Assembly: GCA_008360955.1 (NCBI GenBank)
Contig: LUCM01006656.1
Location: 129,427-193,426, forward strand
Reading direction: 5' to 3'
Origin: Fasciolopsis buskii
Lineage: Eukaryota > Platyhelminthes > Trematoda > Plagiorchiida > Fasciolidae
Length of the DNA stretch: 64,000 nucleotides
Shown: one piece after another, positions 6,697 through 63,452 of the stretch
Layout: each line of letters opens with the position of its first letter
How positions within the stretch are numbered: the stretch's first letter is position 1
Notes under the pieces: generated by a model
The model's database searches: none
Told to the model about the DNA's origin: nothing
Seen by the model: only the letters and a program-made list of their open reading frames with translations
Program-made: the position numbers and the translations under genes

Positions 6697-6790
6697 GTCG
6701 AGAAAGACTACCCATGGTGGTCGAAACTTAGGCGCATTACATCTACCAACAACTGTATTATTAACATTATATCATTCACAATGTAAACGC
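6697..6790 (+). mobile_element. Penelope-like element terminal fragment
   Basis: About 90 bases match the two arms of the inverted repeat at 15848-16040. The shared order is a GACTACC stem (6706-6712), CAT loop, GGTGGTC (6716-6722), GAAAC (6723-6727), then a CATTACATCTACCAAC block and a TTATATCATTCAC tail. The 7-pair stem (one G-U wobble) followed by GAAAC is the stem II and 3' core half of a hammerhead ribozyme, a fold known from the terminal repeats of Penelope-like retroelements. The 5' core that should read CTGANGA is GTCGAGA here, so the copy is probably inactive. No reverse transcriptase or endonuclease coding is visible next to it, so it is a solitary end. Confidence 0.65.
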
Positions 6791-8340: not shown

Positions 8341-8357
8341 CTCCTTACAATCTCCTT

Positions 8358-8534
8358 CGGCCGGCGGAGGCCGAACGAATAAGGTCGTAGCGTTTGGACG
8401 TGAAGCTCGCGGGTTCGGACCATTCCATCACCGGCCAACTTCCCCACTTGGCAACCCTCTGTTGGCCGCGGACTCCTTCCTGAAAAATGATGCACGCTAT
8501 TCCTTCATTAATTAGGGAAGTAAATGATAAAATG
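8358..8534 (+). mobile_element. SINE family 1 copy (tRNA-like head)
   Basis: This belongs to a family with at least seven copies in the window. The 5' part is tRNA-like: a degenerate A box around 8365-8385, a GCGTTTGGAC segment, and the B-box-like GGGTTCGGACC. The body follows with the family's conserved blocks: CCGGCCAACTTCCCCACTTGG, a CTCTGTTGGCCGCGG block, CCTTCCTGAAAAATGATG, and an A-rich tail ending near GATAAAATG. SINEs are non-coding and depend on a partner LINE for movement. Head and tail are both present, so the copy is near full length, with mutated promoter boxes. Confidence 0.68.
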
Positions 8535-10499: not shown

Positions 10500-12460
10500 T
10501 GTTCTCCGTGCCCCGTACGAGGTCCGGGGTCAGAAGTCTAGGTTAGTTGGACGCCATGCCTTAAACACAGCTGATTCTGTTGCAATTTAACTGGACAGTT
10601 ACTGCCCTTTTCACTCAAAAACAATTTGTGGTTATTCTGCGGTTTCCCTTTGCCTTTGTCAAACCCCGGGGAGACATTGGACCGGACGACGATTGACAGA
10701 AAGCACGTACATCCAATCTGTACATCACAATTGATGTCATCAATACGCGTTTTCTCATCCTCCTTTGGTCTGACCTTAAACCCTGAAATGCGTATGGAAT
10801 GCTTCGATACAATGGCAAGCATACAAATCACTGGAAACTAGCTTGTTCATCCACTTTGCGATTTCATTGGGCCCTGCGCGAATATTCCGACAACTGCTTC
10901 CCCGAACCGTCCGTGTGAGTCCCAACAATGACTTACCTTTCCCATGGTAACGAAATCGGCTTCCTCTCAACCAAATAACCACCGCATTCTGTTCATGTTA
11001 GGTGCACAAGTGCAAAAGCTTCCCTTCGATACTGCAATGACACCCCTCGATTTGGTGCTTTTGAGAATCCCAGTGAAATGAACTGCAAATAACATTTTTT
11101 AAGTACTAGATTATGCTTCCATGACATTACTCTTCATGCAACATCCGCGGTTAGCCCATCATTAAAAAACCATGGACATGCTTCCATGGCTTCTTACAGA
11201 TGACATGAACATCGAGATCACGTGATGGATAACGTCTTGGAAACAAATATGCAACGTCATATATAATCTAGTGTCCTTCGTTTCCGCCGTCGGGATGTAA
11301 AAACCCGAAATACTCAACAGGCGAATATTACCGAAATTTCACCACGAGCTTTTTTCGTGGCATACTACAGATTCTAATGATAGGAAAAGTTCCGTACCAG
11401 AGTAATCCTTCCTTTTCGTGTAGTGTTACCTGCTTTCAAGTGGGTCACATCCTGGGACACAGGTCGTGGAAGAGATCTTATCTCACCTGCGTTCCCGGAA
11501 AGGTACTCTCTTGATGGGTCGTGCGGTAACAAAGTGACTCGTTTAGGCCATTCGTAGAATAACCTAACTAATATCGTTTTATAACCGGATTTTCCGCTAA
11601 CTATCGGTTTTTCTCACTCATCTCGATTCTTGTTCAACCCCACCCCGCCTAATCAAACCAGACTGATTAAATTGCATATAATCGGTTTGTGCAACTATTT
11701 TTCTTTTGTTTGTCTTAGCCAAACGGTTTTATGGGGATGGCACGCTGGCCGATTTCACCCCGTCTCTCGGGCAAATTGCTAATTCTCTAATCTTCATTTC
11801 GATCGTCGATCTGCGCGTTCAATAAAGAGCATTCAATGTTTTTAAACTTTCGCCTTGTGGGTTCTGAATTCTCCCGGGGAATGAATAATTTGGACCAAGT
11901 TATTCTAGGCTTCACATCGTCCTTAACATGCAGTAGGAAAATCGGACTCATGACGTCCCTGTTTCACGGTATTTGTACCTTTTCCACCGCTCTATTTTGA
12001 ACTGGCTGGGAATCAGCTGTCTCATATCAACCCAACCGAAGTGGACAGTGTGGTTGCGTGACACTACAACCGCCAGAAACGAGTCTCATCAAAATTTAAA
12101 AATATCCCCGTAAATGAATCAGTAATGAAGATTAATTGAACATTTTCGAGGACGCCAACGTTCATTTCACTCGACTGCTGGTAGTCTTCGTGTAAACTTT
12201 CCTAAGAGTGGTGCACACCGCCTCTTACAAACCGAAAAAAACCGATCAGCTGCAAAAATTTGTGATAATAAATGGAAATAAATGACTGAAGTGACAGAGG
12301 TTGTTCAAGTGATCGATGCCATGAGATGTATATATTCATTTGGAGAGTTTCCAACAACGGGAGCCATGAAATCTCCGCGACATGAATATCAGTCCACACT
12401 AGACCGCTTGTCGTATTCGCGTGTCTCACTGACTTCAATTTTTGCTGTAAGTCTTATCTG
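10500..12460. other. Anonymous non-coding stretch
   Basis: No gene, RNA or mobile-element signature that I can support. Small overlapping open frames occur on both strands around 10540-10980 with no motif. Confidence 0.4.
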
Positions 12461-12472
12461 TTTTTTTGACAG

Positions 12473-12765
12473 CCTTTATTGGTGGTATCAGTCCAATCAT
12501 GGCGAACTACTCTTGGGGAATGTGGCTGTTAACAGACCTCTTGTACCCGATCGAACAATCCACTGTTATGCAGGTCCTCGAAGGAACTTTTGAATCCAGC
12601 CTAATCGCAATGATGTTTCTTTTTTGGCTCACGAAATACATTTCCTCAAGAAATCGGGAAATGAGTCGAACGTGTGGTGCGTTCACGCAGCACATTTTTG
12701 TGATATTTGTCTTACTCGTGCAAATAGTACCAGTAATAATCGATCAGCCAAGTGCAGAAATGTGA
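12473..12765 (+). CDS. Weak candidate 3' exon with two hydrophobic segments
   Basis: A pyrimidine-rich run ending in GACAG (about 12460-12472) resembles a 3' splice site. It is followed by 97 open codons to a TGA at 12763. The translation has two strongly hydrophobic stretches that could span a membrane: one near residues 45-60 (SSLIAMMFLFWLTKYI) and one near residues 77-93 (HIFVIFVLLVQIVPVII). No initiating methionine is needed if this is an internal or terminal exon. I do not recognise the protein. Length is within chance for this window, no partner exon could be joined in frame, and the same frame is wrecked in the noisy copy downstream. Treat it as a hypothesis only. Confidence 0.18.
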
Positions 12766-14922
12766 CCGTCCATTTTTCTCCCAAATCCGTTCGGAACCGG
12801 AGGAAGAAAGGACGAAACAGCTTTGTGAACGTGATTCTAACTCCGAGTCACGCAGCCTGGAAGAGCCGCATTTAGTCACCCTAAGTGTTACCATGACTGT
12901 AAATGTCAACATTATGCAAACAAACTGTGAGCCAAGTTTTCGGCCAATATGACCCAATCAGACAGTTTTGCCGCACAAATCGATCAACCAGACGTGTCGA
13001 CAGCACGTTACAATACCTCAAGCACCTGCGGCCGACAGATCACGTGATATATACGGACGGTCGATCGGCTTTCCTTCGGGCACCCCTCATTTGAGCCATG
13101 ATGACCGTGGTATTCTAGGGTGACAACAACAGAAAAACTAGGAAATATAAAAAACTAGGAAAGTGCAATGACGACTATCCGGATATCGTTTTGTCAAGAA
13201 ACCGACATAATAAAAAAACGAGGGGGATCTATTCTACCATGATGGGATAAACAAACTAGAGGCAGCAATAAATTAAATTAGTCAATGGCTAATAAAATGT
13301 TCAGGATGTTACTCATGCTTCTTAACTTAAATAGTTTTAAATGTGACTGAGAAAATAATTAGTACTCATATTTTGGCATCTCGCATTCACGTGTAAAAGA
13401 AACGGTCTTGCAGTTATTTTAATTAACGTGACCCCAAAATGATCATTCTCATTTCGGTAGTTTCTAAGGCAATCGTGACACTATCCAGACGAATACAAAT
13501 ACGTAAATCTACCTTCTTACTCAAATTTTTTTCACAAATCAACGTAGGTCCCTCGCTGACTCTCCATATCCACACACTGTTGTCTTTTCCTCCCGGTAAA
13601 GAGTCGTATATTCATGCATCAAGATGGAGCATTGATTATTCACTAGACAGTTGCCTCCTCTTTTGAAATAATCGTTCAACTGTGGAAGCCAATGTCTCGT
13701 TTTTCCGCGGAAATAAAATGACACTCACTTCTCTGAAGTTACAATGCAAATGTGAAACCATAGTATCCAGTGAAAGCATCACGCACAAACCCTGTGTGTG
13801 AGGCGTGATAGTGGTGATTATTCTCTAAATAAGTGGCTAATCAAAATGCTTTCATGTCCTATTTACTTGATTTTAGGTGCGAGTCCTTAGGTGCTTTGGA
13901 TATCTGTTTTTTTGCTAACTTTTCCTGGAACTGGACATTTTTGTGGGTTTCAGCTGCCACATAGACTTTTTTAATGGCTGTGTCGGGGTATTACGACGCT
14001 TACATCCTGTGTACGCAGTTCGGATTTGCTTTTACGGATCAAAGCCTGTAGTTGCTGTGTAATGTCCTGGGGTTCATTTTCTCTAGGAAAAACCCCCCAA
14101 CCCGACAAAAATATAACGCTTTGCCTTTAGTAGGTCGCGTGTGAGCAGTCTCAAAGCCTAGCGTATCAGTCAGCATTGCCCTCCGTTATCTATTGTCGAT
14201 ACCCCTCTTACATATGTAACATGACTGGTCTCCTGGATGAATCTTTGTGTTTCTAACTGAAACTGGATAATGGCGGTAAGTTTTTCCACTCCATGTTCTA
14301 CAAACCCGTGAGCCTAAGTAACCGTTACACTATACAAGCTGTCTATGACAGCCCAGTGCGGAGATAAGCTGCCCCATAAGGCCCTCCCGCCGCACAATTC
14401 TCAAACAAGGTCGGTGACAGAGAAGAACGGATGTAGAGAAACCACCCAGGGGCTTTATTTAGCTTTTATCGGAGAAGCAGAGGCACTGAAGACTAATTGG
14501 GAAGACGGGTGTCAACGCAAATGAAAAATTTTGAATGATTTTTTCTTGTGTAAGTATGCTCTTTCCGACTATGGTTACCGAAAAGATCACAGTTTTGACT
14601 GATTCAAGGATAGGCTGAAAGCCTACTTACCGACCAAGAATCTCACCGGTAAAAGCATTTGCCACGCCAGGGAAACCTAAAACGCTGATCATTACCATAC
14701 TAAGCAGCAACATTTAACTCTGCCCACCCATTTCACGGTATACAAGTCATTCAAAAATCGGAACGACAAATTTCCCTAGAACTGGAAACGTGAACTGCAT
14801 TGTTGTTCTCCTCGGCAAAGATAAGGTGGAAAAAAGCTAGGATCACAGATACCGGTTATCTCTAGATATATTTTAAAAAAAGAAAAAAAGTAAATTTAAA
14901 ATAATTTAAATTCTTAAATTTG

Positions 14923-14927
<5 letters not shown>

Positions 14928-14958
<31 letters not shown>
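14928..14958. repeat. (TA)n microsatellite
   Basis: A pure alternating TA tract of about 30 bases follows an A/T-rich lead-in. The corresponding place in the noisy copy (about 21711-21745) is a broken TA/CA/GTA mixture, as expected from raw-read error in a simple repeat. Confidence 0.95.
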
Positions 14959-14960
<2 letters not shown>

Positions 14961-15424
14961 GAGAGACTGCATGTCTGGCAAGGATAACTATGCGTCACAG
15001 TACATGAACAAAACTTGCTACGGTCCCTAGTTCGACCTAGGTAATTCCATGGAAGCGAAAAGTTCTTTGTTTGCACAGCCAAAGTTATCAGGATATTATA
15101 TTGAGCCAAGTTACTGTGTTGTGTTCTACCATCAGATAATTAAAACAACTTTTATTCCGTGACGAATGGGAAAATGGGAGATGGAATCAAAATGTTGGAG
15201 TGTTCACTCGGAAAAGAAAGTTTACAGCCTAGCTTACACAATCCCGAAACATCAGTAATGAGTTTACAGGTATGCGCGGGTGAATGAAAAACCGAGTCAC
15301 TTTGATCTGGTTGTTTGAAGCGCATTTTTTGTTCATCACTTTGAGCACCATCTCTCCTGAGCCTGTTCTAGCACTTTGGCGTTAATTATTCTGCAAGTGA
15401 TCCTAAGTGTTTGGTTTATCGATT

Positions 15425-15860
15425 TGATTTCTTATCGACAGTGAAAGCAAATCAATCAACAATATTATCAAAGACATCAAGTTCACCATGGAACCGAAGA
15501 AGCATGGAGAGCTGACATTTCTAGATGTGTTGGGTAGAAGGAAAGCCAACAGCACGCTGGAGATAAGATGGTATCGCAAACAAACCCGTGCGGATCAAAT
15601 ATTCAAATGTCATAGCAACCACCCAAATAGTCACAAACGGTCCAGTTCCTTTTCAAGAGAGCCAAAACTTACTACAGCACAGAAAGACTGAGAAAGCAAA
15701 AAAGAAGCCTATCGCTTCAATATGTTCGAGAAAAACGGATATTCCAATAACTTCGTGCACGCAATAAAGAAAGAAAAGAACAGAAGAGCACAACCAAACA
15801 AAAGGATCGTCATAGCTACATCAAAAATTTATCTAAATAAACTGCGAAATTGTGAATGAT
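15425..15860 (+). pseudogene. Penelope-like element: reverse transcriptase C-terminal part, decayed
   Basis: Translation gives the conserved C-terminal region of a Penelope-like reverse transcriptase, in order: INNIIKDIKFTMEPKKHGEL (from about 15455), TFLDVLGRRK, YRKQTRADQIF, HSNHPNSHKRS, then after an in-frame stop near 15690 MFEKNGYSNNFVHAIKKEKN and RRAQPNKRIVIATSKIY (to about 15835). In this family the LDVL, HP.SHKR and FEKNGY.NF blocks follow the catalytic palm, and a linker then leads to a GIY-YIG endonuclease. The upstream palm motifs, including the catalytic aspartates, are absent, so the copy is 5' truncated. Stops and small frameshifts show that it is dead. The coding continues at 16040-16500 after an inverted-repeat insertion. 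Confidence 0.85.
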
Positions 15861-16040
15861 ATAATGTTCACGACATAGCGTTTTTGGTAGATGTAATACG
15901 CCAACGTTTCGACTACCGTGGGTAGTCTTTCTTAAGGCAAGTTTTGCAATCAACTACCCACGGTGGTTGAGACGTTGGCACATTATATCTACCAACAACG
16001 CTGTGTTACTAACGCGATATCATACAAAATAAAAGCCAAT
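15848..16040. repeat. Inverted pair of Penelope termini with hammerhead-like folds
   Basis: Two arms of about 85-90 bases face each other around a spacer of about 15 bases. The left arm (15848-15936) read on the minus strand and the right arm (about 15945-16040) read on the plus strand share the same order: a 7-pair stem with a CAC loop, GAAAC or GAGAC, GTTGG, CATTA(C/T)ATCTACCAA, an AACGCT(A/G)TGT block, and ATATCAT. The left arm is close to a full hammerhead core on the minus strand: CTTAAGA (15930-15936), a perfect GACTACC/GGTAGTC stem (15911-15927), and GAAAC (15906-15910). The insertion lies between the reverse transcriptase and endonuclease parts of a Penelope-like element. Confidence 0.8.
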
Positions 16041-16500
16041 AAATGGCGCATCGATTTTTCAGTACACTCCTTATGTCATTCGGTCCTGAAGTTTACAAAA
16101 TGCAAAATTACTCAAACCACAAGGAATCGCGGTTGCTCACAGACTTTCGCAATTTTCAAGAAACCTTGAATCAAGACCAAAAGAGCGACTGAAAATGAAG
16201 AAAAAAAAAACAAATTTCGTCTACAAAGTTAGGTGCATGGACTGCGACAAGTGCTGCGTCAGTCAAACCGGGTGAAAAGTGACTATTTGAATGTGCGCGC
16301 ATTAACTAGCTACAAGAAGACACGACCCTCTCTCTCTCTCTCATATCCGTCCACAAAGACCAAGAATGACACAAATATAATCAGGATAACGTTGAGACTA
16401 AGAGGGACGTGAGTTAGGTGTTAGAAGCATGGTATTTTTCAAATAATTCAATCAATAGACACATCGAATTGGACCACCTGAGCACTCGGACCAGAGGCAC
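16040..16500 (+). pseudogene. Penelope-like element: linker and GIY-YIG endonuclease, decayed
   Basis: The frame reads, with several stops: SQTFAIFKKP (linker), KTNFVYKVRCMDCDKCCVSQTG (from about 16210; longest run quoted in two parts, KTNFVYKVRC and MDCDKCCVSQTG), LATRRHDPLS, ISVHKDQE, VLEAWYFSNNSINRHIELDH (to about 16472). These match the order expected in a Penelope endonuclease: VYK.C..C...YVGQTG, then an LAT.RHDPLS block, then EAW...NSINRHIELD at the C-terminus. The GIY-YIG core YVGQT is CVSQT here, and the region where the catalytic arginine should lie contains stops, so it cannot be active. This is the 3' half of the element that begins at 15425. Confidence 0.83.
16328..16342. repeat. 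(CT)n short tract
   Basis: A run of CT dinucleotides lies inside the decayed endonuclease, at the place encoding PLSLS. It probably grew by slippage and contributed to the local frame disruption. Confidence 0.85.
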
Positions 16501-16699
16501 ACAGTGCAACTAGTTGGGAAAACCGAAATTCGCACCAACAATGTCACCTCGAGTGATGATGAAGCGTTTGCGTTCGAAATGTCAAACTCAGTTAACAGAA
16601 CACCATGGAAACCCTCAATCTGAGCTGCGGCCAACACAAATTTTCAAACACTATAACATCACTCAGTACGAACAGTTCAATTACGGCCCATTAGCAATC

Positions 16700-18930
16700 T
16701 AATTTGGATAATCTAAGTCAAACAACAAACTAGAGGATGGGGGAAATTCACGTGAGTCACATGACCGTTGTCAGTTATTCATACGTATGCCAAGATGCGA
16801 CGCTAAATGGGATAAAGGTAGCAGAGGAGAAGGATGGCGACCAATTTCCCACACTTACTAAATATTTTTACTATCACTAGCCATGCTTTATATTTTGCGC
16901 TTCACTGAGCACAAAGTTGGGTAATAAAAATTTTATCCCCTTTTCTTTGGTCCGAACAACTACGACTCGCCCATGTGCTGAATCATCCTTGCATGTGCCG
17001 AGGCACCCGAACCATTCTTTGTTTTGTTGCCCACGGCAACGATTTGCACACACGACCTTCATCACGGGCTTAACCGACTGAAATCACGTGTGCGTGATCT
17101 GACTGGGATCGGTTCAGATCTCCGATTTCCGAAAGCATGGAAAGAATCCAAGCCCGTTCATAAAGTGAAAACAAGACAACAAGCTCTGTCAGTGTCATCG
17201 ATCGGGACGGAATGTGCGCGTGTGTGAATTGGGTTCTCCTCGTAGTTCACGGCACAACTATTCAGTCACTTAAATATCGATCCAAAAATAAGTGCTTTCA
17301 TGATCGACCCCGTGATAGAAAATTTTTGATTCCTGGCTTTATTTCTTATTCGGTAGGAAATTGTTAAATCAAAAGATCTTTTCTAACTCGTGTACACCGT
17401 TTTCATTTTTCCGTGATAAATCTATCGGGACTAGCACCAATGATATAGCTAAAGTGTTTGTTTCCGTAATATGTGATACTGCTTATTGCTAAGTGTTATC
17501 ATAAGTGTGCATCGTTCCGAAGCTTTGTTCAAATCACACTAAGCTGGTTGGTAATTGTGCACAAGACACGCAGTCGATTGCAGTACTTCGTTAAAATGAA
17601 CGTACAGAATACCAGTAGGAAGTTGCGTAGCCTTGCCATTTCTATTTGACATAGCTCGCCTACCTTTTAAGTTGTTATCCGATAGAGCAGGTTGTTTGAA
17701 AATCGTTATTATACACCCGTAAAGGCACATCACGGTTCCCGTGCCTGGGAAGTACACTTCTGAATATGAAGCAGAAAATAATTTTTGCCCATACGTGAAG
17801 GCTTCACAAGTGCCGCAAATTTCCCGTTTCTTTTTGGTGTAAACGTGTGCGAAATGCAAGTGAACACAACCAAGTCAAACCTGCTGCTGCTAGTACGGAT
17901 AATCCATTTCGACAACCGTGCACCTGCAGAAACTGCAAGAGACTTCTAAAGAAACACAGTGTAGAATGTGCATTGAAAAATAATGAACACAAGAGTTTCC
18001 CAAGGATTGATTATTTTGCCAGCTACACAGAAGAAACTTCCTGAAGCATTTTACCGTGAATATTTTATGGTTTTGGTTTCAAATGGTCCAAAGGATATAG
18101 GATAAAGCTTCAAGCTTAAATCTGAAGCAAATTGCAACCGGAACAAACAAGAACGCAAATTGCCAACTGCTCAACTATCCGACAAGGAGCAGAAATAGAC
18201 AGAGGACGAGAACAAGTTGAACAGAAGAAACAGTTCTTTGAACAATCTTTTCTAATTACGCTAAACCAAACCCCATCAAACGTAAACGTATGTGTTCGCC
18301 GATGGGTCACTACAAATTGGTTACCTGGAGACGGGGCGTTCGCGATCACTTTTGGACTTGGGCAACACGGCATTGGTTTTCTCCAAACCGGGGACAAATA
18401 TGACTCCCATTTTATATGCAAAAATCTAAAAATGAGAAGAAAAACGTTGCGAGTTGCGAATATATGCTGGACTAGTTCCCAACTCAGTAGACTTGCACAA
18501 GTAGGTTTGTTAAAAATCACATCAACTGGTTGTACATAGAAACGTACAAAATCGGAATTGCATTCAGCTTTTTCCAGACATCCTTTCCGGAGGTTTGATG
18601 ACTTTCAGAAATCCCCTTTTTGTCTGTGGGGGACCAAAAACATTTTAAACGCCGAGTCTTACTATTCACGGTGTTTGGGCAGTTCTGGACTTGGCTGACC
18701 ACAGATTGCAAAATTAGCCAAACCTGGCGTACAGGCAGACAATCCAAGTTCAGTTATGCTTATCTACCCTACGGAAACCAAACAGGAAATGGGAAAAAGT
18801 GAATATTTAACTGCCAAAAGAACCTAGTCTACAACAAGTTCTCTGCAGGATTGCAGCCTGCGAGTGAGCTTGCTTAATTTGAGCCGGTAATCACCGTTTC
18901 CCGACTGAATTTTTCATACACCCGCCAGAG
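16700..18930. other. Anonymous stretch, source of the downstream noisy copy
   Basis: No supported gene. Open frames on both strands at 18116-18539 run about 135 codons but overlap each other antisense, show no domain and are not preserved in the noisy copy. The stretch is useful mainly as the accurate reference against which 23800-26400 can be aligned. Confidence 0.45.
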
Positions 18931-18935
18931 TTGGT

Positions 18936-19606
18936 CTGGTAGCTGGTTGTACATGCGCGACGGCAGTGCACCAGTTTCCTCCGCTCGTGGGTTCGAATCT
19001 CGCATTTGAATTTGTTTCAACTTCGTTCAGCTGATAGCCTTTCAGACTGCATCTTCCACGAACGAACCCCAAGTAGCCAAGCTCTGTAAGTCATATCCAA
19101 AGCCTTCGACGTACTTAGGCTACCTTCAGAGAAATCATTTATCAGTGGTGGTCTACTGCTGTGTGCTAGCGGCCCGCGGCCGTGAAAATCAGTGACGGAT
19201 AGGTGCAACATCATGTGGTGAAGTTCAACAAACCGTTCAGAGCCTGCCCGGTAGCGTAATGGCTAAGGCGTTCGACGCAGAATCGTTCGTCCTTATTCGG
19301 GTTCGCGTCGCAGTTCAGGCGCGGTGGATATGCACAGCTGATGATTCCTAACAAGGATGAAACAGCTGTACAGTGGATCTATGGTTTCTTTATGGTGAGC
19401 TGAACAATGAAATCGCATGGTGAATTATTTCATGAAAACTCCAGGTCATCTGATTGACTTAAGCTTCGAGGCAGTAGACCTGAGTTTCGTTCTTGTTAGA
19501 ACTGCCGAGTGTTGGTGACTGTCATTGAGGATGACAAGTGAATAAATCTAAGCCGGCACTTCTGATTAACCTGAACGGGAGCTGGTGGTGCAGTAGTAAT
19601 ACACAC
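18936..19606 (+). mobile_element. Tandem run of SINE modules (tRNA-like heads)
   Basis: Three tRNA-like heads follow one another. The first has the B box GGGTTCGAATCTC near 18990, with a body containing AGCCAAGCTCTG, TCCAAAGCCTTCGAC and CATGTGGTGAAGTTCA. The second starts at 19244 with an A-box-like TAGCGTAATGG and B-box-like GGGTTCGCGTC, then a body with AACAAGGATGAAACAGCTG and GGTGAATTATTTCATG. The third starts near 19582 (GCTGGTGGTGCAGTAGTAAT) and is cut by the N gap. Its second half reappears at 27075. Single modules of each kind occur elsewhere in the window, so this is a composite or a set of nested insertions. Confidence 0.65.
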
Positions 19607-19616
19607 NNNNNNNNNN
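19607..19616. other. Assembly gap (10 Ns)
   Basis: Ten undetermined bases form the only gap in the window. They mark the exact point where accurate sequence stops and the noisy copy begins. A fixed 10-N run is a placeholder, not a measured distance. Confidence 1.
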
Positions 19617-22600
19617 AAAAGAAGAGAGATTCCAGTTTTTCTCCAAATCGTTCGACCGGGAGGAAGAAGGAACGAAACAGCTTTGGTGTTATGAAAACGG
19701 TGATTTAGACTCCGGTCAACGGCCAGCCTGAAGAGCGCATTTTGAGTCCAACCACTAGTGTTACCATGACAGTAATGTCAACATTAGCCAAACAACCTGT
19801 GCCAAGTTTCGGCCAATATTGACCCAAATCAGAGACAGTTTTGCCGACAGATCGATCAAGACTGGTGTCGACAGCACGTTACACAATACCTCAAGCACCT
19901 GCGGCCGACAGATTCACGTGATAATTATACGGACGTGTCGATCGCTTTCCTTCGGGCACCTCATTTGAGCCATGATGACCTGTGTATTCTAGGGTGAGCG
20001 ACAACAGAACAAATAGAAATATAAAAACAAGGAAAGTGCAAGTGCGACTTCGGTAAGTAATGCGTTTGTCAAGAAACCGAATAGAAAAAAACGAGGGGGA
20101 TACTATTCTTACCATGATGGGATAAACAAACTGAGGCAGCCAATAAAGTTAATTATCTGGTAATAAATTTCAGGATGTTACTCATAACCAGCAACATCTC
20201 GATAACACAATATAAATAGTTTAAAAACTGTGACCTGAGAAAATAAATAGTACTCCAACTAAATATTATGGCAATCATCGCCTCCTCCACCCCCGTGAAA
20301 AAGAAACGGTCTTGCAGCTTCATTCCAGTTAATTCAAAGTCGAACCCAAAACAGAACCAATTCTACATTCCGGTAGTTCTCCTAAGGCCCAATCGCTGAA
20401 ACACACCACACAACCACCACAGCACGAATACACAAACATACGCTAAATCTACCACTTCACATTATACTCAAAACTTATCTCTTAGTCCAAAAGATGGTCC
20501 CCCTCCTGACTCTCCATATCCCAACACCACCTTCACTCTTCCCAGGATAGAATTATATTCCATGCTCAGATGTGAGGGGCATTGATTTCAACCAACAGTT
20601 GGCTCCTCTTTTGAATATGCGTTCTAATTTGAGCCAATGTCTCGTTCTTTCCGCGGAAATAAAATGACACTCCTTCCTGAGTTACAAATGCATGTGATGG
20701 GCTTCAAAGTGACATAGTACAAACAACTGTTACGTTGATAGTGTATCTACAAAAAATGGCTTGTAATTACAAGAATCTTCAAATGATCCTAAACTTGTTT
20801 AGTGAGTCTATGCAAAAAATTTGCCTACTTCTGATGGTAAATATGGTCCACCCCAAAACCACGACTTTACCCTACTATGTCGTATAAGACCAGCAACCAC
20901 AATCGGACTGATCTACGGCAAAACTGAGTTGCTGGTGTAAGTATCTTGTACTTAGTAGTCTCTTAGATGACCTCAAAATAAAGCTTTGGGCCTTGTGGTC
21001 GTACTAGTCTCAAGCTAGAGAACTGTGCATAAAGCTATTCGGTTATTCATTGTTCTACCCTCTACATGTACAATAATGATCTGGTGAACTTTTTGTTTTT
21101 CTACTGAAACTGAGTATGGGATTTTCACTACAGTTCTAACCCTGGCCAAGTAACCGTTACACTATAAAGCTTTCAAGAACCTGAGTGAGGAGCGGATAGG
21201 CGTAGCCCCAAAGGCCCGCATGATTATTATTTCAGTGGTGACAGAATGACGGTAATTAGATAAAACCCCCAGGGTTTTCATGCGTATGTGAAAGCAGGCT
21301 GCAAGACTAATGGAAGAACGGGTGATCAGAGTACGAGCAAATGAATTTTGGAAGTGATTAGTTTTAGTGAGTATAGACAGGACAGTCTTTTCCGGTATGT
21401 GTGTACGAAAGATCACATTTTGACTGATTCAGGATTGGTGAAGAGCACGCAGACAAGATTCATCACGGTAAAGCTTTCCGATTGAAGATGTCGGCGGACG
21501 AGGAAACTCAGAACGACGGGGCTGTTCATCTAAGCAGCAAATTACTCTGACCTTTGTTATATGTATTTCAAGAAATCCGGACGATTTCTAAACTGGGAAA
21601 CTTGAACCTGCATGGTTTTTCCGGGATAAAGTGAAAAGCTAACACAGAACCGTTTCATCTTATAATATCTAAGATATGATCTATGTTATTTAGTATATAG
21701 TATTATTTATAAATATATATATATACATATGTATATATATATATAGATCATATAGGTGTATAGCTAGAATCTGCAATGTCTGGTCAAGACTGATATAACT
21801 AAGCGTCACCAGTACATGACAAAACTGATGCCTACGGTCCCTAGTTCGCCTAGGGTATCCACTGGAGCGAAAAGTCTTTGTTTTGCCACAGCAACAAGTG
21901 CTATCACCGGACCACTTATCATTTGGCAATGTTACTGTGTTGTCGATATCTATCCATCAGATGAATTAAAAACAACTTTTATTCCGTTGACGAATGGAAA
22001 ATGGGAGAATGGAGATCTGAAAAGATGTTGGAGTGTATCACGTCGACAAAGAAAGTTTTACAGCAGCCTATGTTACACAACGCTGAAACATTCATGTAAT
22101 GAGTTTAACAAGGTATGGCGCGGCGTGAAATGAAAAGCACGAAGTCAACTTTAGAATCTGGTGTTTGAAAGCGCATTGTTTGTTCATACCACTTTGGAGC
22201 GACCATCTCTCTAGAGCCTGTTCTAGCAATGGCGTAATCTATTCTGGCAAGTGATCCTAAGTTGTTATGGTGTTATCGATTTTGATTTCTGATCGGACAG
22301 TGCAACAGCATCAATCCACAATATTATCAAAGACCTAGTTCACCATGGAAGCCGAAGAAGCTGCGAGGAAGCACTGACATATTCTAGATGTGTTGGGTTA
22401 GAAGAAGCCAACAGCAACGCTGGAGATAAGATGAGTATCGCAACACGACCCGTGCGGATTAGATATATTCAAAGATGTCATAGCGAACCGAAATCCCAAA
22501 AATAGTCAACAAAACGGTCCAGTCCTTTTCAAGAGAGGCCAAAACTTATAAGCACAGAAAAGCTGATGAAAGCAAAAATAGGAGAGTCCTATCCGTGTCA

Positions 22601-25600
22601 GAATAATAGTTACGAAGGAAAAAAAGGCTATTCCACGATAACTTCAGTGCATCCATAAAGTAAAAGAAAAAATACCAAGAAGCGAGGCTACAACCAAACG
22701 CACAAAGGATCGGCATAGCTTACATCAAAAGTTGTTCTTATAATAAGACTGGCGAAATTTGTGAATGATATATGTTACGATTTCACTATTAGGTTTTGGT
22801 AGATGTAATAGAACGCCCAACGTTTCGACAGCGCATGGGTGAAGTCATTCTTATAAGGCTCAGGTCTTTTGCAGATCAAACCAACCGACGGTTGGTTGAG
22901 ATGATATGCATTGTGATAAGTCCTACCAACTAACAGCTGGTTTTGTACTTAATCCGCGATAATCCATAAAAATGAAATAGCCAGATAAATGGCGCAGTGA
23001 TTTCAGTAAATCTTTGTGCATTCGTCCTGAAGTTATAATAATCGCAAATTTAATAGCAAATGACACAAACGACAGGAAATTCGCGTGTGCTTCACGAGAC
23101 TTATTCAGACACTATTCGAAAGAATGATATAGTCCTTGAATCAAAGGACACATCAAATAAGGAGCGACTGAAAAACTGAAGATCGGAAAAGAAAGAGAAT
23201 CACACATTTCTGATCGTAACAGAAGTTATGGTTTTTTGCATTGGAACTGCGACTGCATAAGCTCGGCTTGCGTGCAGACAATACCGGGATGTTGAAAATG
23301 ACTATTTTGATATGTGCCGCCAGCAATTGTAACTCTATAGCGTCAATAAGATTAGACACTGTCACGGTCTGCTTCTCTCTCGTCATATCCACGATCTCTA
23401 AGACCAAAGACAGTAGAATGGATACAAAATCTAAATTAGGATATAATATGATTTAGTAGACTAAGAGGGACCCGGTGAGTTCAGGTGGTTAGACAGCATG
23501 GTAGTTTTTCAAATTAATTCCAATCTAAATAAGACACAGTCGAAGTTTGGGGACCACCGTGAGCACTCGGACCAGAGGCCTACAAGTGCAACTAGTTGGG
23601 AAAACGAAATTCGCACCGAACAATGTCACCAGTCTGAAGTGAAGGTTGATGAACTGAGTTCGTTGTCGTTCGAAATGTCAAACTCAGTTAACAGAACACT
23701 ATGGAAACCCTCAAGTCTGAGCTGCGGCCACAACCATTGCTACAACATTTCTAATAATTGAAGCATATCAGTACACATCAGGACTCAGTCACGATAAGTA
23801 CAGTTCAACCTTTACGGCCGATTAGCAGTCTAATTAGGATAATCTGCAGTTCTAAACAACCAAAACATAGATGATAAGGGCCTCTGGAAAGATCAGCGAA
23901 GTGATTTCACATTGGAGCAAGTGTGTCAGATTGATTCGATGACGGTTCGCCAAAGGATGTGCGACGGCTGAAAATTGGGATATAGCAGGTAATATGTAGA
24001 GGGAGAAGGTATGGCAGACAAATTTCCCACACTTTATAAATATTGTTTGTACTAATGCATAGACCATGCTTGTACGTATTTTGCGCACTTCAACTGAGCA
24101 CAAAGTCGTTGGGTAATCAAGAATATTTAATCTACCGTCTTTTCTTTGGTCCGAAGCAGAAACTAACGGACTCAGCTGCAGTGCTGAATACTCAATTACG
24201 ACACTGCTATGTCGTCCTTCGTATGGCATGTTTCCGAACTAGTTCATTATGGTTCTTTGTGTGTCCGTTCTCTCTTTTTTATTTATTCCCACGGACACAG
24301 CCCGATTGGCACACAGCTAGCCTTTTGAATGGAACCACGACGCTTTACGATGACACGGCATTAACAGCGAGTCGTGAAATTCTACTGGATGTGCCGGATG
24401 GAATCTGATGGGGTCTGGTTCAGCCAAGAATCTCCGATTCCGAGAAAAGCAATGGAAGAGAAAGATCGAACAAGCGCTGCTTCATAAAGGTCGATAATAG
24501 CATAGAGAGACGGCATCTAGGTTCCAGTGTCAATCTGTCGGGCACGGAATGTGCGCGTGTCTTAGGTGTGAAATTGGCATTCTCTGTACTCGTGTTCACG
24601 GACACACTAATTACAGTCTCTTGTGTAAGTAGCGTGCGCAGGACCAAAAATAAAGGTGCTTTCATGAATCGAGCCGCTCGTGATGTAGACAATTTTTGAT
24701 TCCTGGATTTTATTTCTTTATCGGTAGGAAATTGTTATAAAGTCAAAGTATCTTATTCTACTCGTGTATATGCGTTTCATTTTGTCGTTGATAATCTATC
24801 GGGGACTACACCAATGAATAAGACTAAAGTGTTTTTTGTTTGCGTAATGAGTGTGTACTGCTTTATTGCTAAAGTGTTGATATAAGTGTGCATCGTCGTA
24901 CAGCTTTGGTTAAATCAACTAAGCTGGTTTGGTAATTGTGCACAAAGACAAAACAAGTCGAGTTTGGCAAGTATTTTGTATCATTTTCGTTACAAATAGG
25001 ACGTACAGATACCATTAGGATTGAATTGCGTACCTTGCATTTCTATTGTACATAGGCTCGCTACATTTTTGAAAGTTGTTATCCGATAGAATGAGGGTGT
25101 GTTATGTAAAATCGTTATTATACTACCCTCCGTAACAGGCACATCTACGGTTCCGTTGCCTGAGGAAGTAACTTCGGAATATATAGAACGAAAATATAAG
25201 TTTTGTTGCCACGACACCGTGGAGGTTCAACAAGTGCGAAATTTCCCGTTCTTTTTGATGTAAACGTGTGCGAAATGCAGGTGAATCATCAACAAGTCAA
25301 ACCTGCTGCTGCTAGTACGGATAACACAATTTTACTGCAACCTGGCATGCTAGCAACTGAAAGAGACTTCTAAAGGAAACACAGTGGAGATGTGCCTTGA
25401 AAAATAATGAACTCACAGGTTTCGCAAGGATTGTTATTTTGCAGCTGACGAGAAAACTTCCTAGAAGATTTTACCGTGTATATTTATGGTTTTTGTTTAA
25501 AATGGTCAAAGGATATAGGATAAAGTTCAAGTTTAAGATCTGAAGCAATTGCACCGAACACAACAAGAACGCAAATGCCAACTGCTCAACTATCCGAAAG

Positions 25601-26711
25601 GAGCAGAAATAGAAGGCGAGCAACAAGTTGAACAGAGAAACAGTTTCTTTGAACAATCTTTGTCTATTCGGACTAAACAAACCTATCAAAACGTAAGAAG
25701 CATTTGTTCGCGGATGCTGGGGTCAAGCTACCAAATTGGTTACCTTGGAAGTGGGCGTTCGCGAACATCAGTTTTTGATCGACTTGGGGCACACCGGCAG
25801 ATTGGTTCTAATCCAAACAGGGGCAAAGTATGACCCCTTTTTATATGCATCAAAATCATAAAATGAGAAGAAAACAGTTGTGAGTGATGCCGATATAATA
25901 CGCTGAGTCTAGTTTCCAACTCAGTAGACGCTTGCCACAAGTTAGGTTTTGTAAAAATCATCATTTACTGTTGTACAATAGAACGTGCAAACATCGGAAT
26001 TGCTTCAGCTTTTTCCAGACATCCTTTCGGAGGTTTGTGATTTCAGAATCCCTTTCTGTCTGTGGGGAACCCAAAACATTTTAACGCTGCGTCTTACTAT
26101 TCCGGTGTATTGGGAGTTGGATTGGACTGACCAGAATTGCAAAATTAGCCAAACGGTACGGACAGATCATCCAAGTTCCAGTTAATGCTTATCTAACCCT
26201 CGAAACCAAGACAGGAATCGGGAAACAGGTGAAGATTTAACTGCCAAAGCAACTAGTCTACTCAACAAGTTCTCTGCAGGATTGCAGCCGACTCTGAGTG
26301 AGCTTGTTTCTAATTTGAGCCGGGTAATGCAAGTTTTCCGACTGAAATTTTTATACACCCGCGAGGAGTTGGTTGGTAACCGTGGTGTACATGGCGGACG
26401 GCAGTGCAGCCAGTGTTCCTCCTGACTCGTGGGTTGAAATCTCGCATTGTGAATTTTTCAATCGTTCAGCTTAGCACTCAGACTGGTTTCCACGAACGAA
26501 ACCAGTAGCCAGCTCTGTAGAGTTTACATATCCAAAGCCTTCGACGGGGTACTTAGGCTAACTGTTCAGAGAAATCATGTTATCAGTCGGTGGTCTACTG
26601 CTGTGTGCTAGGGCCCGCGGCAGTGAAAAATCCTGACGAGATGGTGCAAACATCAGTGTGGGGAAGTTCAAAACGTTCAACCTGCCGTCGGTAGCGTCAA
26701 TGCTAAGGGCG
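19617..26711 (+). other. Assembly artefact: noisy duplicate of about 12755-19272
   Basis: This block is collinear with the preceding accurate sequence throughout. Anchors include: 19630 with 12765; CAAGCACCTGCGGCCGACAG at about 19893 with about 13018; the ACCATGGAA of the Penelope fragment at about 22343 with 15485; CAGGATTGCAGCC at about 26277 with about 18847. Differences are mostly single-base gains and losses spread evenly through coding-like, spacer and repeat sequence alike. The copy is about 7.1 kb against 6.5 kb for the source. That is the profile of an uncorrected, insertion-biased long read and not of evolutionary divergence. Every open frame and the second Penelope copy inside (about 22290-23560) should be ignored as separate features. 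Confidence 0.93.
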
Positions 26712-27074
26712 CTGCCCGGTAGCGTAATGGCTAAGGCGTTCGACGCAGAATCGTTCGTCCTTATTCGGGTTCGCGTCGCAGTTCAGGCGCGGTGGATATG
26801 CACAGCTGATGATTCCTAACAAGGATGAAACAGCTGTACAGTGGATCTATGGTTTCTTTATGGTGAGCTGAACAATGAAATCGCATGGTGAATTATTTCA
26901 TGAAAACTCCAGGTCATCTGATTGACTTAAGCTTCGAGGCAGTAGACCTGAGTTTCGTTCTTGTTAGAACTGCCGAGTGTTGGTGACTGTCATTGAGGAT
27001 GACAAGTGAATAAATCTAAGCCGGCACTTCTGATTAACCTGAACGGGAGCTGGTGGTGCAGTAGTAATACACAC
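26712..27074 (+). other. Exact 363-base re-entry copy of 19244-19606
   Basis: The accurate sequence restarts in the middle of a SINE head and repeats 19244-19606 (offset 7468) with no difference that I can find. It then continues past the point where the first copy hit the N gap. Just upstream, 26680-26711 is the noisy read's own version of the same bases (GGTAGCGTCAATGCTAAGGG against GGTAGCGTAATGGCTAAGGC). So the head appears twice in succession, once noisy and once clean. This is the overlapping end of the next contig, not a biological direct repeat. Confidence 0.93.
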
Positions 27075-27235
27075 GGCTTCCATGTGGAAATTCCGAGTTC
27101 AAACTTCGGGTACGAAGGGAGATACTCACCACCAGATGAATCTTGATGGGAGCGAAGTTGAAGTCTGAAGTTTCCGAGTGCAAGGCCCGAGGTTTGTGCT
27201 CGAAATGGCCAGTCAGTCGAGCAAATTGTCATCAA
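27051..27235 (+). mobile_element. SINE family 3 copy
   Basis: The tRNA-like head begins GCTGGTGGTGCAGTAGTAAT. It includes ACACGGCTTCCATGTGG and the B-box-like GAGTTCAAACTTCGG, followed by a body with CACCACCAGATGAATC, GAAGTCTGAAGTTTCCGAGT and CCCGAGGTTTGTGCTCGAAA. A diverged relative lies at 55320-55650 and a minus-strand fragment at 38070-38140. Its first 24 bases are the duplicated overlap. In the corrected sequence it follows directly on 19606. Confidence 0.62.
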
Positions 27236-27239
27236 CAGT

Positions 27240-30200
27240 CCAAATTTATCGCTTCTTGTTGTAGGGTCTATATGCTGCGTTCGTCAACCACGTCAAACCA
27301 AACCAAGCAGAATGTATGTTTCACGGCGCTTTAGCCTTTCAGTGCACTGTGAGAAATAACTCACCGATACTACACAAACCCGAACTTCTTTCGAACCTAG
27401 TTTACAAACACGACCAAGAATTTATGAAAATCAGTATCGTACAACACACAAAAATTTCCACATAACCTGACTACCGAAAAGAACTATAGACACGTTGTAA
27501 ATGCATTTTGTGAACTGCAAAGTGACAACCTCGGTATGACCAAATAAAATCAGATTAGTGTTACTTGAGACGACAATATGCAATTCGACCGATGGCAAGG
27601 AAGTACGTGTATGGACTGCCAGTTCGCAATGGCACGACTGCGGTCCAAACTATGTGAATGAAGACATCCAGAAGACCACAAAAACTGTAAAACATGTTAC
27701 GGGTTTAGTTACGACCCCTGTGTTCACACAAATTTTCTATTTGGTTAAGCATGTTCTCACCAGTTTTATTTGGGGTCGACTTTCCTGCTTCGTTTTCGGG
27801 TTTTGTCATGGTTCTGATGGACTGGTTGTGTACGGAGGCTACAGCAAAGCTATACTTCGCCGTATCAGGTGATCTCCTCATAGACTGATCACATCGTCCC
27901 GACTACACCAAGGCGATTCAGCAGATTGCGTCAGAACCACAGCTTTCATGGTTAAGCCAGAACAAAACATATAATCAAAGGTTTCGTCATGCACATCACT
28001 TTCTAATGGTCAGTGGCTGTGCAATTAGGTTATACTCATTTAGGACAGTTGGGAGAACTGGATCACTGGTTGCAGTTCAGCTGGGATGACATATGTCAGC
28101 ATTTCACCTGTTTCAGCTGCTGTGATCGGCGGCCTACCATACCACGTATGCCATCCTTATGCGTCGATTGAACAAGCAAGGATTTCGCAAATGAAAGCTT
28201 AGTTCCGATTCTCTGTTGGTTGAAAATCATCGAAAATTGCTGTTAGAATGTAGGATGAAATGTGGTTTTTGAGGAACAGTGGAAATAAGCACTTTGTCTT
28301 CTAAAGAAAATTTGTATGGGCGCACACCTCTTAAATCAGTGAAAGAATTGCGGGGATAGCTAGAATCCAGCCCAGTTCATGGCCAGTGGTAGTCCCAAGA
28401 GCCACCTAGCTAGGATGTTAGAGTAAGGTGGTTACCTCTGTCACTAGCGGAAAAAAGAAGCGTTGATTAATATGTGGCTGACATTTTTGCAATATTCCTT
28501 ACGATTCTTACAAAGTGTCGGAAAAATAAGGCTAAATCGCATTAGACAAACAAGTCACGCGCCTTTTGCGGCATTTCTGACGCGAACAGCATCTCATCTC
28601 CTATGTGCTTTGACTACGTCTTACAGACACGCGCGTGGCTGGATATCGAAGGCAATCGACCGGTGCCGTTATCCATATCGACTTCCAGGAGACGCTGACA
28701 TTACAACGGAACTCGTTTTTTCAAAGCTTTAGGAAATTTTATTGATGTGATGTGTTCGCCTGGAAGTCACTTGACATAGCCCGGTAAGGTTTCGCTATCG
28801 TCTTGGATTACGACCAGCCGCCCAAGATGTTGCGGAATAGCAGAGATGAAAAGTGAACATTCCAAGACGGGTGCCGGTTCAATCGCACAGGGTAGCGCCT
28901 AGAACAATTTCAACTGTGGATGTTGATGAATCCCCGTATCAAACTGTCACGTTTCCAAAATTTCTTGTGTTTCAAAACTATCATTTCATTTTATCATCGT
29001 TACTAAGAAAAAGGTTTATCTAACGCTTTCATCTAGCCGATCAATACGAGCAAAACGAAATATCAGCATCTAGCAGCGTTTGTCTTTTTACCCTGATGAG
29101 CTTCTTGAGGCGCGGGTTTTTTAACCCAGAAGCAACCGATCCGTAAGCATACTTATTCGGATACCGGACAGGAAAAATTGTATGCGTAGGCATGGAGAAC
29201 AAAACAACTGACAAAACACAAATCATTGAAAACAGTTCAAGTCACCCGCTGCTGTGACAGGGAGGTTTTGGGTGAATCCCGCTTGTATTGGGAGACAATC
29301 GATTGCTTCAAACGGAGCCAGGTGCAATTAACAGCTAGTTGGATACTTCAATAACAAATCCAACTTATATTGCATGTGTGAAAGGTATCGAAATTTTGGC
29401 CAATCACGTCTAACCGGTGTGGTTCCATGTTCAATGTAGTCCGAGATTTCTTCCGCCGAAGAACTGTCCGCTTGTCCAAAACTTGTCATCTTTTTTTCTA
29501 TCCAAAGAGGAGAGAGTGTGGCTAAACTGTGCGTTTGATTTCCAAATATGCCCCGTTGAATTATTCAACACAGACAAAAAACGCATCCCGACGTGGGGAT
29601 TAAAAAACCCGAAACAATTGGGATGGAAACGAGGAAAATCCAGCCAAAAGGGGCCGTACGAATTTCGGATAAATATAGGTTAAGGGGAGAAATGGGCTAT
29701 ATATTTAACCAGGTGTCACGAAAATGTGTAAAATAATTAGCTTTCCCGGGATGGATAAAAGCAACTGTTGGCAGTTCTGTCCTATTCATCAGTTTTGTAT
29801 TTTGTTCATTGTTTTGCCTTGCTGATGAAATCAAACAAATTTCATGATTTTTTCTGGCACTAATTCTGCCCCCAAAAGCAGACCATGTGACCGGGTTTGG
29901 TCATTCACTTTGCACGGTATATATCGGAACGCTGCACTGTATTTTCATAAAAAACTCACTGATATAAATTTGTGAAAACTACGGGATATTGGACACCAAG
30001 TGGACTGTGGTACAAAATTACCCTTGTCGGGAAAATAAATTCAAATTACTCGGATGAACTCTTTATCTGTCTATCCTTAGAACAGGGTCAACGGATATGC
30101 CTCCGCATAAGGCGATTTGATCGCTATGGTTACGGTATCAACATAGTTCGTTCGCCGTATCAGCTAATCCGATAGCCGAAAATAAGCCCGTTATTAAGGT

Positions 30201-38140: not shown

Positions 38141-38562
38141 GTTCCATTCAAGTTGTTTACAATTAGCTGCAGGTAGTTGTGAAATTCACGCAAATTCGTA
38201 TCCACTCGCCTTTTTCGTTTGATCAGCTTCATTATGTGGAAAAATTTTTGTGTTGTCAAGCGATTTGATCCACTTGTCTTGATCATCAAAATAAATTACC
38301 CTGTCAGATCTTCTGTTCGAATTACCCGACATCACTGTTTGTAAAACCAATTTTCCAGATATTAAAACTAATACGGATATTTAGACGTTTGAGTAACCCA
38401 AAATTCCATGTTTCAAATGAGGCAGTGTTCCAGTGGGCTGTCAGATCATGTCGCATGTGGAATTGTCTCCCCCCGTGTGGATGATTTGCATGGCCAAGCG
38501 GGCGTATTTTGTTCTTACCGCTGCGATTGTCAAGTTCGAGCAGTCACTTGAGTTTTGCAATT

Positions 38563-38748
38563 AGGCCGGTGGTGGCCAGACGGATAAGGTTGTGGCGTTT
38601 GGACTTGAAGGTCGCGAGTATGAATCCTCACATTGCCAGTCAACTTCCCCATTTGGCAGCCCTCTGCTGGCCACGGCTCCCTTCCTGAAAAAATGTTCTA
38701 CATTGTCATTTAATTAGTAGAGGAAGTGAAAAGATAAAGGATAGATTA
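38563..38748 (+). mobile_element. SINE family 1 copy
   Basis: The head reads GGTGGCCAGACGGATAAG (A box), GTGGCGTTTGGACTTGAAGG, and B-box-like GTATGAATCC. GCGTTTGGACTTGAA is reminiscent of the anticodon-arm region of a serine- or leucine-type tRNA, which points to the ancestral tRNA class. The body follows: CAACTTCCCCATTTGG, CAGCCCTCTGCTGGCCACGG, CCTTCCTGAAAAAATG, CATTTAATTAGTAGAGGAAG and an A-rich AAAGATAAAGGATA tail. This is one of the two best preserved members in the window. Confidence 0.72.
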
Positions 38749-50204: not shown

Positions 50205-50384
50205 TTAGTTTTTATTTTCTTTATTAATGAAATAACAATGTACATCATTTTTCAGGAAAGGGTTCGCGGCCAAGAGAGAACGGCCAAGTGGAGGAGTTGG
50301 CCGGCGGTGGAAGGATTCGAATCCGTGACCCTCACGTCCAAACGCCACGATCTTATCCGTTTGGCCACCACTGATCACTGTGAT
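50205..50384 (-). mobile_element. SINE family 1 copy with best-preserved promoter boxes
   Basis: Read on the minus strand from about 50384, the A box is TGGCCAAACGGATAAG and the B box is GGATTCGAATCC, both close to RNA polymerase III consensus. A GTGGCGTTTGGACGTGAG segment lies between them. The body has CCGCCGGCCAACTCCTCCAC, CTCTTGGCCGCGAACCC, TTCCTGAAAAATGATG and ATTGTTATTTCATTAA, and ends in an A-rich tail at about 50205. The head supports descent from a serine- or leucine-type tRNA. No terminator or target-site duplication could be fixed by eye. Confidence 0.75.
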
Positions 50385-63339: not shown

Positions 63340-63452
63340 TATTTTATCTTTTATCATTAATGAAATAACAATATGCATCGCTTTTCAGGAAGGGGGCCGC
63401 GGCCAGCAAAGGGCTGACAAGTGGGGAAGTTGACCAGTGGTGGAAGGGTCCT
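63340..63452 (-). mobile_element. SINE family 1 copy, 5' truncated
   Basis: On the minus strand it reads CCACTGGTCAACTTCCCCAC, TTGTCAGCCCTTTGCTGGCC, GCGGCCCCCTTCCTGAAAAG, ATGCATATTGTTATTTCATT and AATGATAAAAGATAAAATAT. The body and tail are well preserved, but the sequence stops matching at the B box and the whole tRNA-like head is missing. That is the signature of incomplete reverse transcription. Confidence 0.7.

Follow-up and report, generated by a model that had tools for sequence, protein, structure and literature searches.

The direct duplication at 19617-27074 of this Fasciolopsis buskii sequence is almost certainly an assembly artefact rather than a real feature of the genome. The window, by which we mean the whole 64-kb stretch analyzed here, covers bases 129427-193426 of a 311,738-base scaffold in an assembly of 703,196,239 bases and 6,974 sequences, and a gap of 10 Ns at 19607-19616 is its only N run. 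Sequence to the left of this gap is found again to its right, first as a noisy version and then as an exact one, in the following arrangement (window positions).

12750-19270, plus strand: clean source of the noisy copy, within the left contig ending at 19606, aligned end to end with 19617-26711
19069-19440, plus strand: dispersed repeat of about 370 bases that holds the start of the contig overlap; its genome matches and family alignments served as the natural control and as the reference for polarity
19244-19606, plus strand: end of the left contig and its 363-base contig overlap, repeated exactly at 26712-27074
19607-19616, no strand: gap of 10 Ns, with the left contig before it and the putative read-derived extension after it
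19617-26711, plus strand: noisy copy, in all likelihood a leftward extension of the right contig by a single uncorrected long read (75.0% identity; 1,137 inserted, 563 deleted, and 215 mismatched bases over 6,521)
20186-20560, plus strand: burst of A and C insertions, which make up 89 of the 95 bases inserted (best segment score 77; highest score among 300 shuffles, 21)
26682-26711, plus strand: seam, where the opening 27 bases of the right contig are read once more with errors, aligned to 19244-19270
26712-27074, plus strand: start of the right contig, an exact copy of 19244-19606

The 7,095 bases of 19617-26711 align over their full length, in the same order and on the same strand, to the 6,521 bases of 12750-19270, with 5,743 matches, insertions in 684 events, and deletions in 378 events. 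The sequence-only reading had reported an N gap, then a copy of about 7.1 kb in unchanged order and orientation that was about 9 percent longer than its source, then a 363-base perfect repeat of 19244-19606. All of this was borne out, with a length ratio of 1.088 (8.8% longer), an exact repeat of precisely 363 bases whose match ends at the left edge of 26712, and a small adjustment of the source from 12755-19272 to 12750-19270. BLAST of the window returned the pair as four collinear pieces of 2121, 800, 551, and 272 bits, the first of which includes the exact 363 bases, and this collinearity excludes a chance resemblance of 19617-27074 to 12750-19606. A genome-wide search with 12755-19606 gave 82 matches, consisting of the segment itself, its noisy partner, and short dispersed repeats; among the matches listed, which came from scoring 40 of 5,210 candidates with very common words skipped and so do not amount to proof, there was no further full copy.

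The differences between the two copies are dominated by insertions and deletions. Per source base, the noisy copy carries 0.174 insertions, 0.086 deletions, and 0.033 mismatches, a total of about 29%, and it has 4.94 indel events for each mismatch. As a natural control we aligned 15 distinct copies of the repeat at 19069-19440 with the same scoring, and these have 0.16 indel events per mismatch (78 events and 475 mismatches), a value that depends on gap costs, as stricter costs gave 0.022 over 18 alignments in which two copies were doubled and one was the left half of a duplicate flanking a 68-N gap. The ratio in the noisy copy is thus about thirty times that of natural copies, and none of the 15 approaches it (highest single copy, 0.34). 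Its substitutions, 77 transitions and 138 transversions, are near the random 1:2; the corresponding ratio is 1.07 in the repeat family and 24:6 and 3:4 in two other gap duplicates, which makes it a weak control when taken alone. There was no CpG excess, with a transition at 6 of 481 CpG bases compared to 38 of 1945 other C or G bases, and no preference for homopolymers, with 112 of 273 single-base deletions lying beside the same base against a background of 48%.

The ranking of error types, insertion above deletion above mismatch, is that of raw PacBio reads, for which the PBJelly paper uses an RS profile of 2% mismatch, 4% deletion, and 9% insertion (PMC3504050). Reads simulated at twice those rates and aligned with the same scoring gave, in two runs, insertion rates of 0.147-0.153, deletion rates of 0.051-0.052, and mismatch rates of 0.048-0.051, with a length ratio of 1.10 compared to the 1.088 observed. 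Relative to this doubled simulation the noisy copy has fewer mismatches (0.033) and more deletions (0.086), and PacBio RS is credited in that paper with roughly 15% error in all, half the figure of about 29% obtained here (PMC3504050). The agreement thus extends to the ranking of error types and to the lengthening but not to the exact proportions, and the source read would have been an unusually poor one.

One claim of the sequence-only reading, that indels and substitutions are spread evenly, did not hold. When the source was divided into 26 bins of 250 bases, inserted bases ranged from 6 to 135 per bin and deleted bases from 3 to 78, and the variance-to-mean ratio was 18.7 for inserted bases, 19.0 for deleted bases, and 1.9 for mismatches. 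The regime shifts along the copy, which is deletion rich at source positions 13755-14755 and insertion rich at 15755-17255. This burstiness leaves the raw-read conclusion unweakened, as single-molecule reads would be expected to vary along their length.

In the burst at 20186-20560, nearly all inserted bases are A or C. The best segments for the other five letter pairs scored only 15-18, none of them exceeding its own shuffle maximum. Local correlation of inserted letters tells the same story, with a z of 13.5 for AC|GT, 4.1 for AG|CT, and 1.8 for AT|CG; with the burst removed, AC|GT falls to -0.1 and a weak AG|CT signal persists (z of 3.2). A and C would be the two bases excited by one laser, a pairing for which a literature search found no supporting paper. 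A burst of this kind is what one would expect from a single-molecule instrument disturbed in one dye or laser channel, and we tentatively raise the possibility that the A/C-only insertions are an optical fingerprint of the instrument.

Which of the two copies carries the changes can be read from the dispersed repeat. This element of about 370 bases has at least 38 near-full-length matches at 86-91% among the genome matches listed. Within 19069-19270, where the clean and noisy copies can both be set against the family, they differ at 35 bases (19 inserted, 12 deleted, and 4 substituted). At all 16 substituted or deleted bases the clean copy is in the family majority state and the noisy copy at none, one of the polarized deletions also occurring in some member of the family. 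Where the clean copy itself departs from the majority, at 18 positions, the noisy copy shares all 18. Insertions polarize less cleanly: none of the 19 falls at a family insertion under strict gap costs, and 7 fall within a base of one under gap-friendly costs. Such one-sidedness speaks against two real copies, because copies aging side by side would share out the changes between them. A separate count of 22 columns favoring the noisy copy, 37 the clean copy, and 9 neither was discarded. It rested on a multiple alignment that cut the clean copy off at 19243 but carried the noisy one on through its second reading of the contig start; once those bases were set against 19244-19270, the noisy copy agreed with the family majority against the clean copy at 0 bases. 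Several copies of the repeat have a second copy nearby in the opposite orientation. Motifs in the repeat resemble the two internal promoter boxes of tRNA genes and would make it a possible SINE. No tRNA was predicted anywhere in the window by ARAGORN.

The error spectrum and the polarity together lead us to reject both readings in which the second copy would be real sequence. An old tandem duplication could have decayed and then been homogenized at its right end by recent gene conversion, and partial conversion would indeed be expected to leave one identical end with the rest diverged. We give this almost no credence: the changes sit on one copy at 16 of 16 polarizable substituted or deleted bases, indel events stand to mismatches at 4.94:1 compared to 0.16:1 in natural copies, and an A/C-only insertion burst, a noisy re-read of a contig start directly ahead of the exact copy, and an N gap at the junction all count against such a history. 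The second copy might instead be the allele of the other haplotype, assembled apart from the first, a pattern that may exist on this same scaffold at 230072-230750 and 230752-231431. Here, however, identity is 75% and differences are mostly indels, compared to identities of 94.9% and 98.6% in the two other gap-abutting duplicates; the one-sided polarity and a ratio of 4.94 rather than 0.16 indel events per mismatch are likewise unlike natural polymorphism, and a heterotype false duplication is extremely improbable.

A variant of the artefact itself deserves more weight, namely that the noisy copy came from another platform, such as early nanopore, or is a poor consensus of several reads. The changes of error regime along the copy could mark the passage from one read to another. 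Yet insertions exceed deletions 2:1 and mismatches 5:1, and simulation with mismatch and deletion rates above the insertion rate produced a shorter copy (0.97-0.98 of the source) rather than a longer one. Combining several reads into a consensus should also raise accuracy above that of a single read. We therefore regard this variant as unlikely, and a single uncorrected read as the better description of the noisy copy.

How such a read could have come to stand beside the clean sequence is suggested by the seam. Just before the exact copy begins at 26712, bases 26682-26711 are a noisy re-read of 19244-19270, so that these 27 bases are present three times; because the noisy sequence re-reads the first 27 bases of the right contig, the read would have overlapped that contig and been placed in front of it untrimmed. 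We propose that the left contig, ending at 19606, and the right contig, starting at 26712, overlap by 363 bases beginning inside the dispersed repeat, and that the two were scaffolded and left unmerged. In a later gap-filling or end-extension step with long reads, one uncorrected, insertion-rich read, most likely a PacBio continuous long read, would have been anchored where the right contig starts, and its 7,095-base overhang would have been written into the "gap" as a second, noisy reading of 12750-19270. The filler would have missed the overlap with the left contig, left the 27 bases at the seam untrimmed, and retained 10 Ns. The duplicate, its error spectrum, its one-sided polarity, the exact overlap, and the seam are there to be seen in the assembled sequence; the platform, the single read, and the tool step we infer. 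The earlier attribution of the entire 7.5 kb to an uncorrected long read is accordingly narrowed: error spectrum, polarity, overlap, seam, and gap support a read origin for 7,095 bases, and the last 363 bases are ordinary contig overlap. The true genome should join 19606 directly to 27075. A PCR primer placed just left of 19606 would not discriminate, because its site occurs in both copies.

Artefacts of this class are already known. The VGP paper gives the name homotype to false duplications that are about a read in length and are often found at contig boundaries (PMC8081667). The case here resembles them in lying at a contig boundary and in being tied to sequencing errors or overlapping contig ends (PMC8081667). 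Its duplicate abuts the gap on both sides, with the left match running to 19606 and the right copy starting at 19617, and the copies differ by sequencing error rather than by allelic variants, as judged from spectrum and polarity. At 7,095 bases the noisy copy is plausible as a read, and according to the PBJelly paper PacBio RS reads longer than 7 kb are not uncommon (PMC3504050). An example described in the VGP paper is blamed on a FALCON bug, whereas here a raw read was apparently added beside a clean contig (PMC8081667).

The case also resembles the "overfilled" gaps of PBJelly, 444 of 1,007 of which were attributed to negative gaps in one genome (PMC3504050). Both have a raw PacBio extension of a contig end (putatively so here), no recognized overlap across the gap, a negative gap beneath (here the exact 363-base overlap of the underlying contigs), and the same order of error types (PMC3504050). 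Unlike the published description, the error rate here is about twice that stated and the remaining gap is 10 N (PMC3504050). These 10 Ns could be linked to no one tool. The 27-base seam also lies slightly above the PBJelly limit, under which a read counts if its alignment comes within 25 bases of the gap (PMC3504050). As the tool responsible, PBJelly is a lead only. An S. haematobium paper reportedly mentions it. PBJelly also appears in the methods described for the P. kellicotti assembly (696.5 Mb in 29,377 contigs), where reads were corrected first (PMC7370270). According to the DENTIST paper, the sequence put in by the available long-read gap closers often falls well short of the accuracy of finished sequence, and closure with solitary reads inserts the raw read (PMC8848313). 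The fills benchmarked there close true gaps, whereas at 19607 there was no gap to fill (PMC8848313).

A survey of gaps in this assembly covered four loci of about 3.4 kb, six 10-kb pieces from elsewhere, and 263 kb of a single scaffold, of which about 36 kb is N. This sequence contained 12 N runs, 10 of them with both flanks, some of which may be masked sequence rather than gaps, and the sample is not random because the six extra pieces were picked for holding the repeat of about 370 bases. Direct duplicates abut the gap on both sides at 3 of the 10 gaps, that at 19607 included. One of the others, at C3925:230072-231431 (L025), is a direct duplicate of about 680 bases at 94.9% identity around a single N at 230751; its halves, 230072-230750 and 230752-231431, are identical over about the first 207 bases and then diverge, with 30 mismatches (24 transitions and 6 transversions) and 5 indel bases, and perhaps represent two haplotypes or unmerged overlapping contigs. 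The other, at L034:5380-7214 on another contig, is an 881-base direct duplicate at 98.6% identity whose copies abut a 68-N gap from either side and differ at only a few places, towards the right-hand end. As neither is noisy, the raw-read component was seen once in the sample. Four of the remaining seven gaps had no direct match, two (scaffold 33174 and 104922) had matches away from the gap only, and at the last, a single N at L008:2386, a 353-base match at 95.2% touches the gap on the right but not on the left, and an inverted repeat surrounds the N. The stretch L008:2340-2430 sets that N between nearly perfect inverted arms, and several copies of the repeat of about 370 bases occur there in both orientations.

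Several other elements were noticed along the way. Within the clean source, a translated piece of 49 amino acids at 15485-15631 had no Pfam or protein match and resembles, we presume, the C-terminal part of Penelope-like reverse transcriptases. An imperfect hairpin of about 130 bases at 15873-16008, related to 6701-6782 and to copies on contig C45, is perhaps a small foldback element. The two Rfam hits in 12000-28000 stayed below threshold and were taken as chance (MIR7996, at this hairpin, with 41.3 bits against a gathering threshold of 119, and manA with 17.6 against 55.2). Four related repeats at 8356-8524, 38561-38732, 50209-50371, and 63342-63451 match each other pairwise over about 50-165 bases at 76-91% in both orientations. 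Elsewhere on this scaffold, a GPCR-like frame gave three protein matches, one identical, one to a Fasciolopsis buskii protein at 57%, and one at 43%. Broken COX1-like fragments at G000:C753:1046-1702 (L035), read with flatworm mitochondrial codons, retain two stops; the stretch sits in a 173-kb contig, which makes a nuclear copy of mitochondrial sequence the probable reading.

With abutting duplicates at 3 of 10 sampled gaps, any tandem duplication that lies at a gap in this genome deserves distrust until reads have been consulted. The polarity of differences, judged from a family of dispersed repeats, offers a read-free means of telling which of two copies carries the errors. If the optical origin of the burst is correct, clusters of inserted bases drawn from {A,C}, or from the complementary {G,T}, could serve to mark unpolished raw-read segments in public assemblies for which reads are not at hand. 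The duplication at 19617-27074 adds no biology to F. buskii, and gene callers, repeat-age estimates, structural-variant callers, and counts of genes and repeats would all be misled by taking it as part of the genome.
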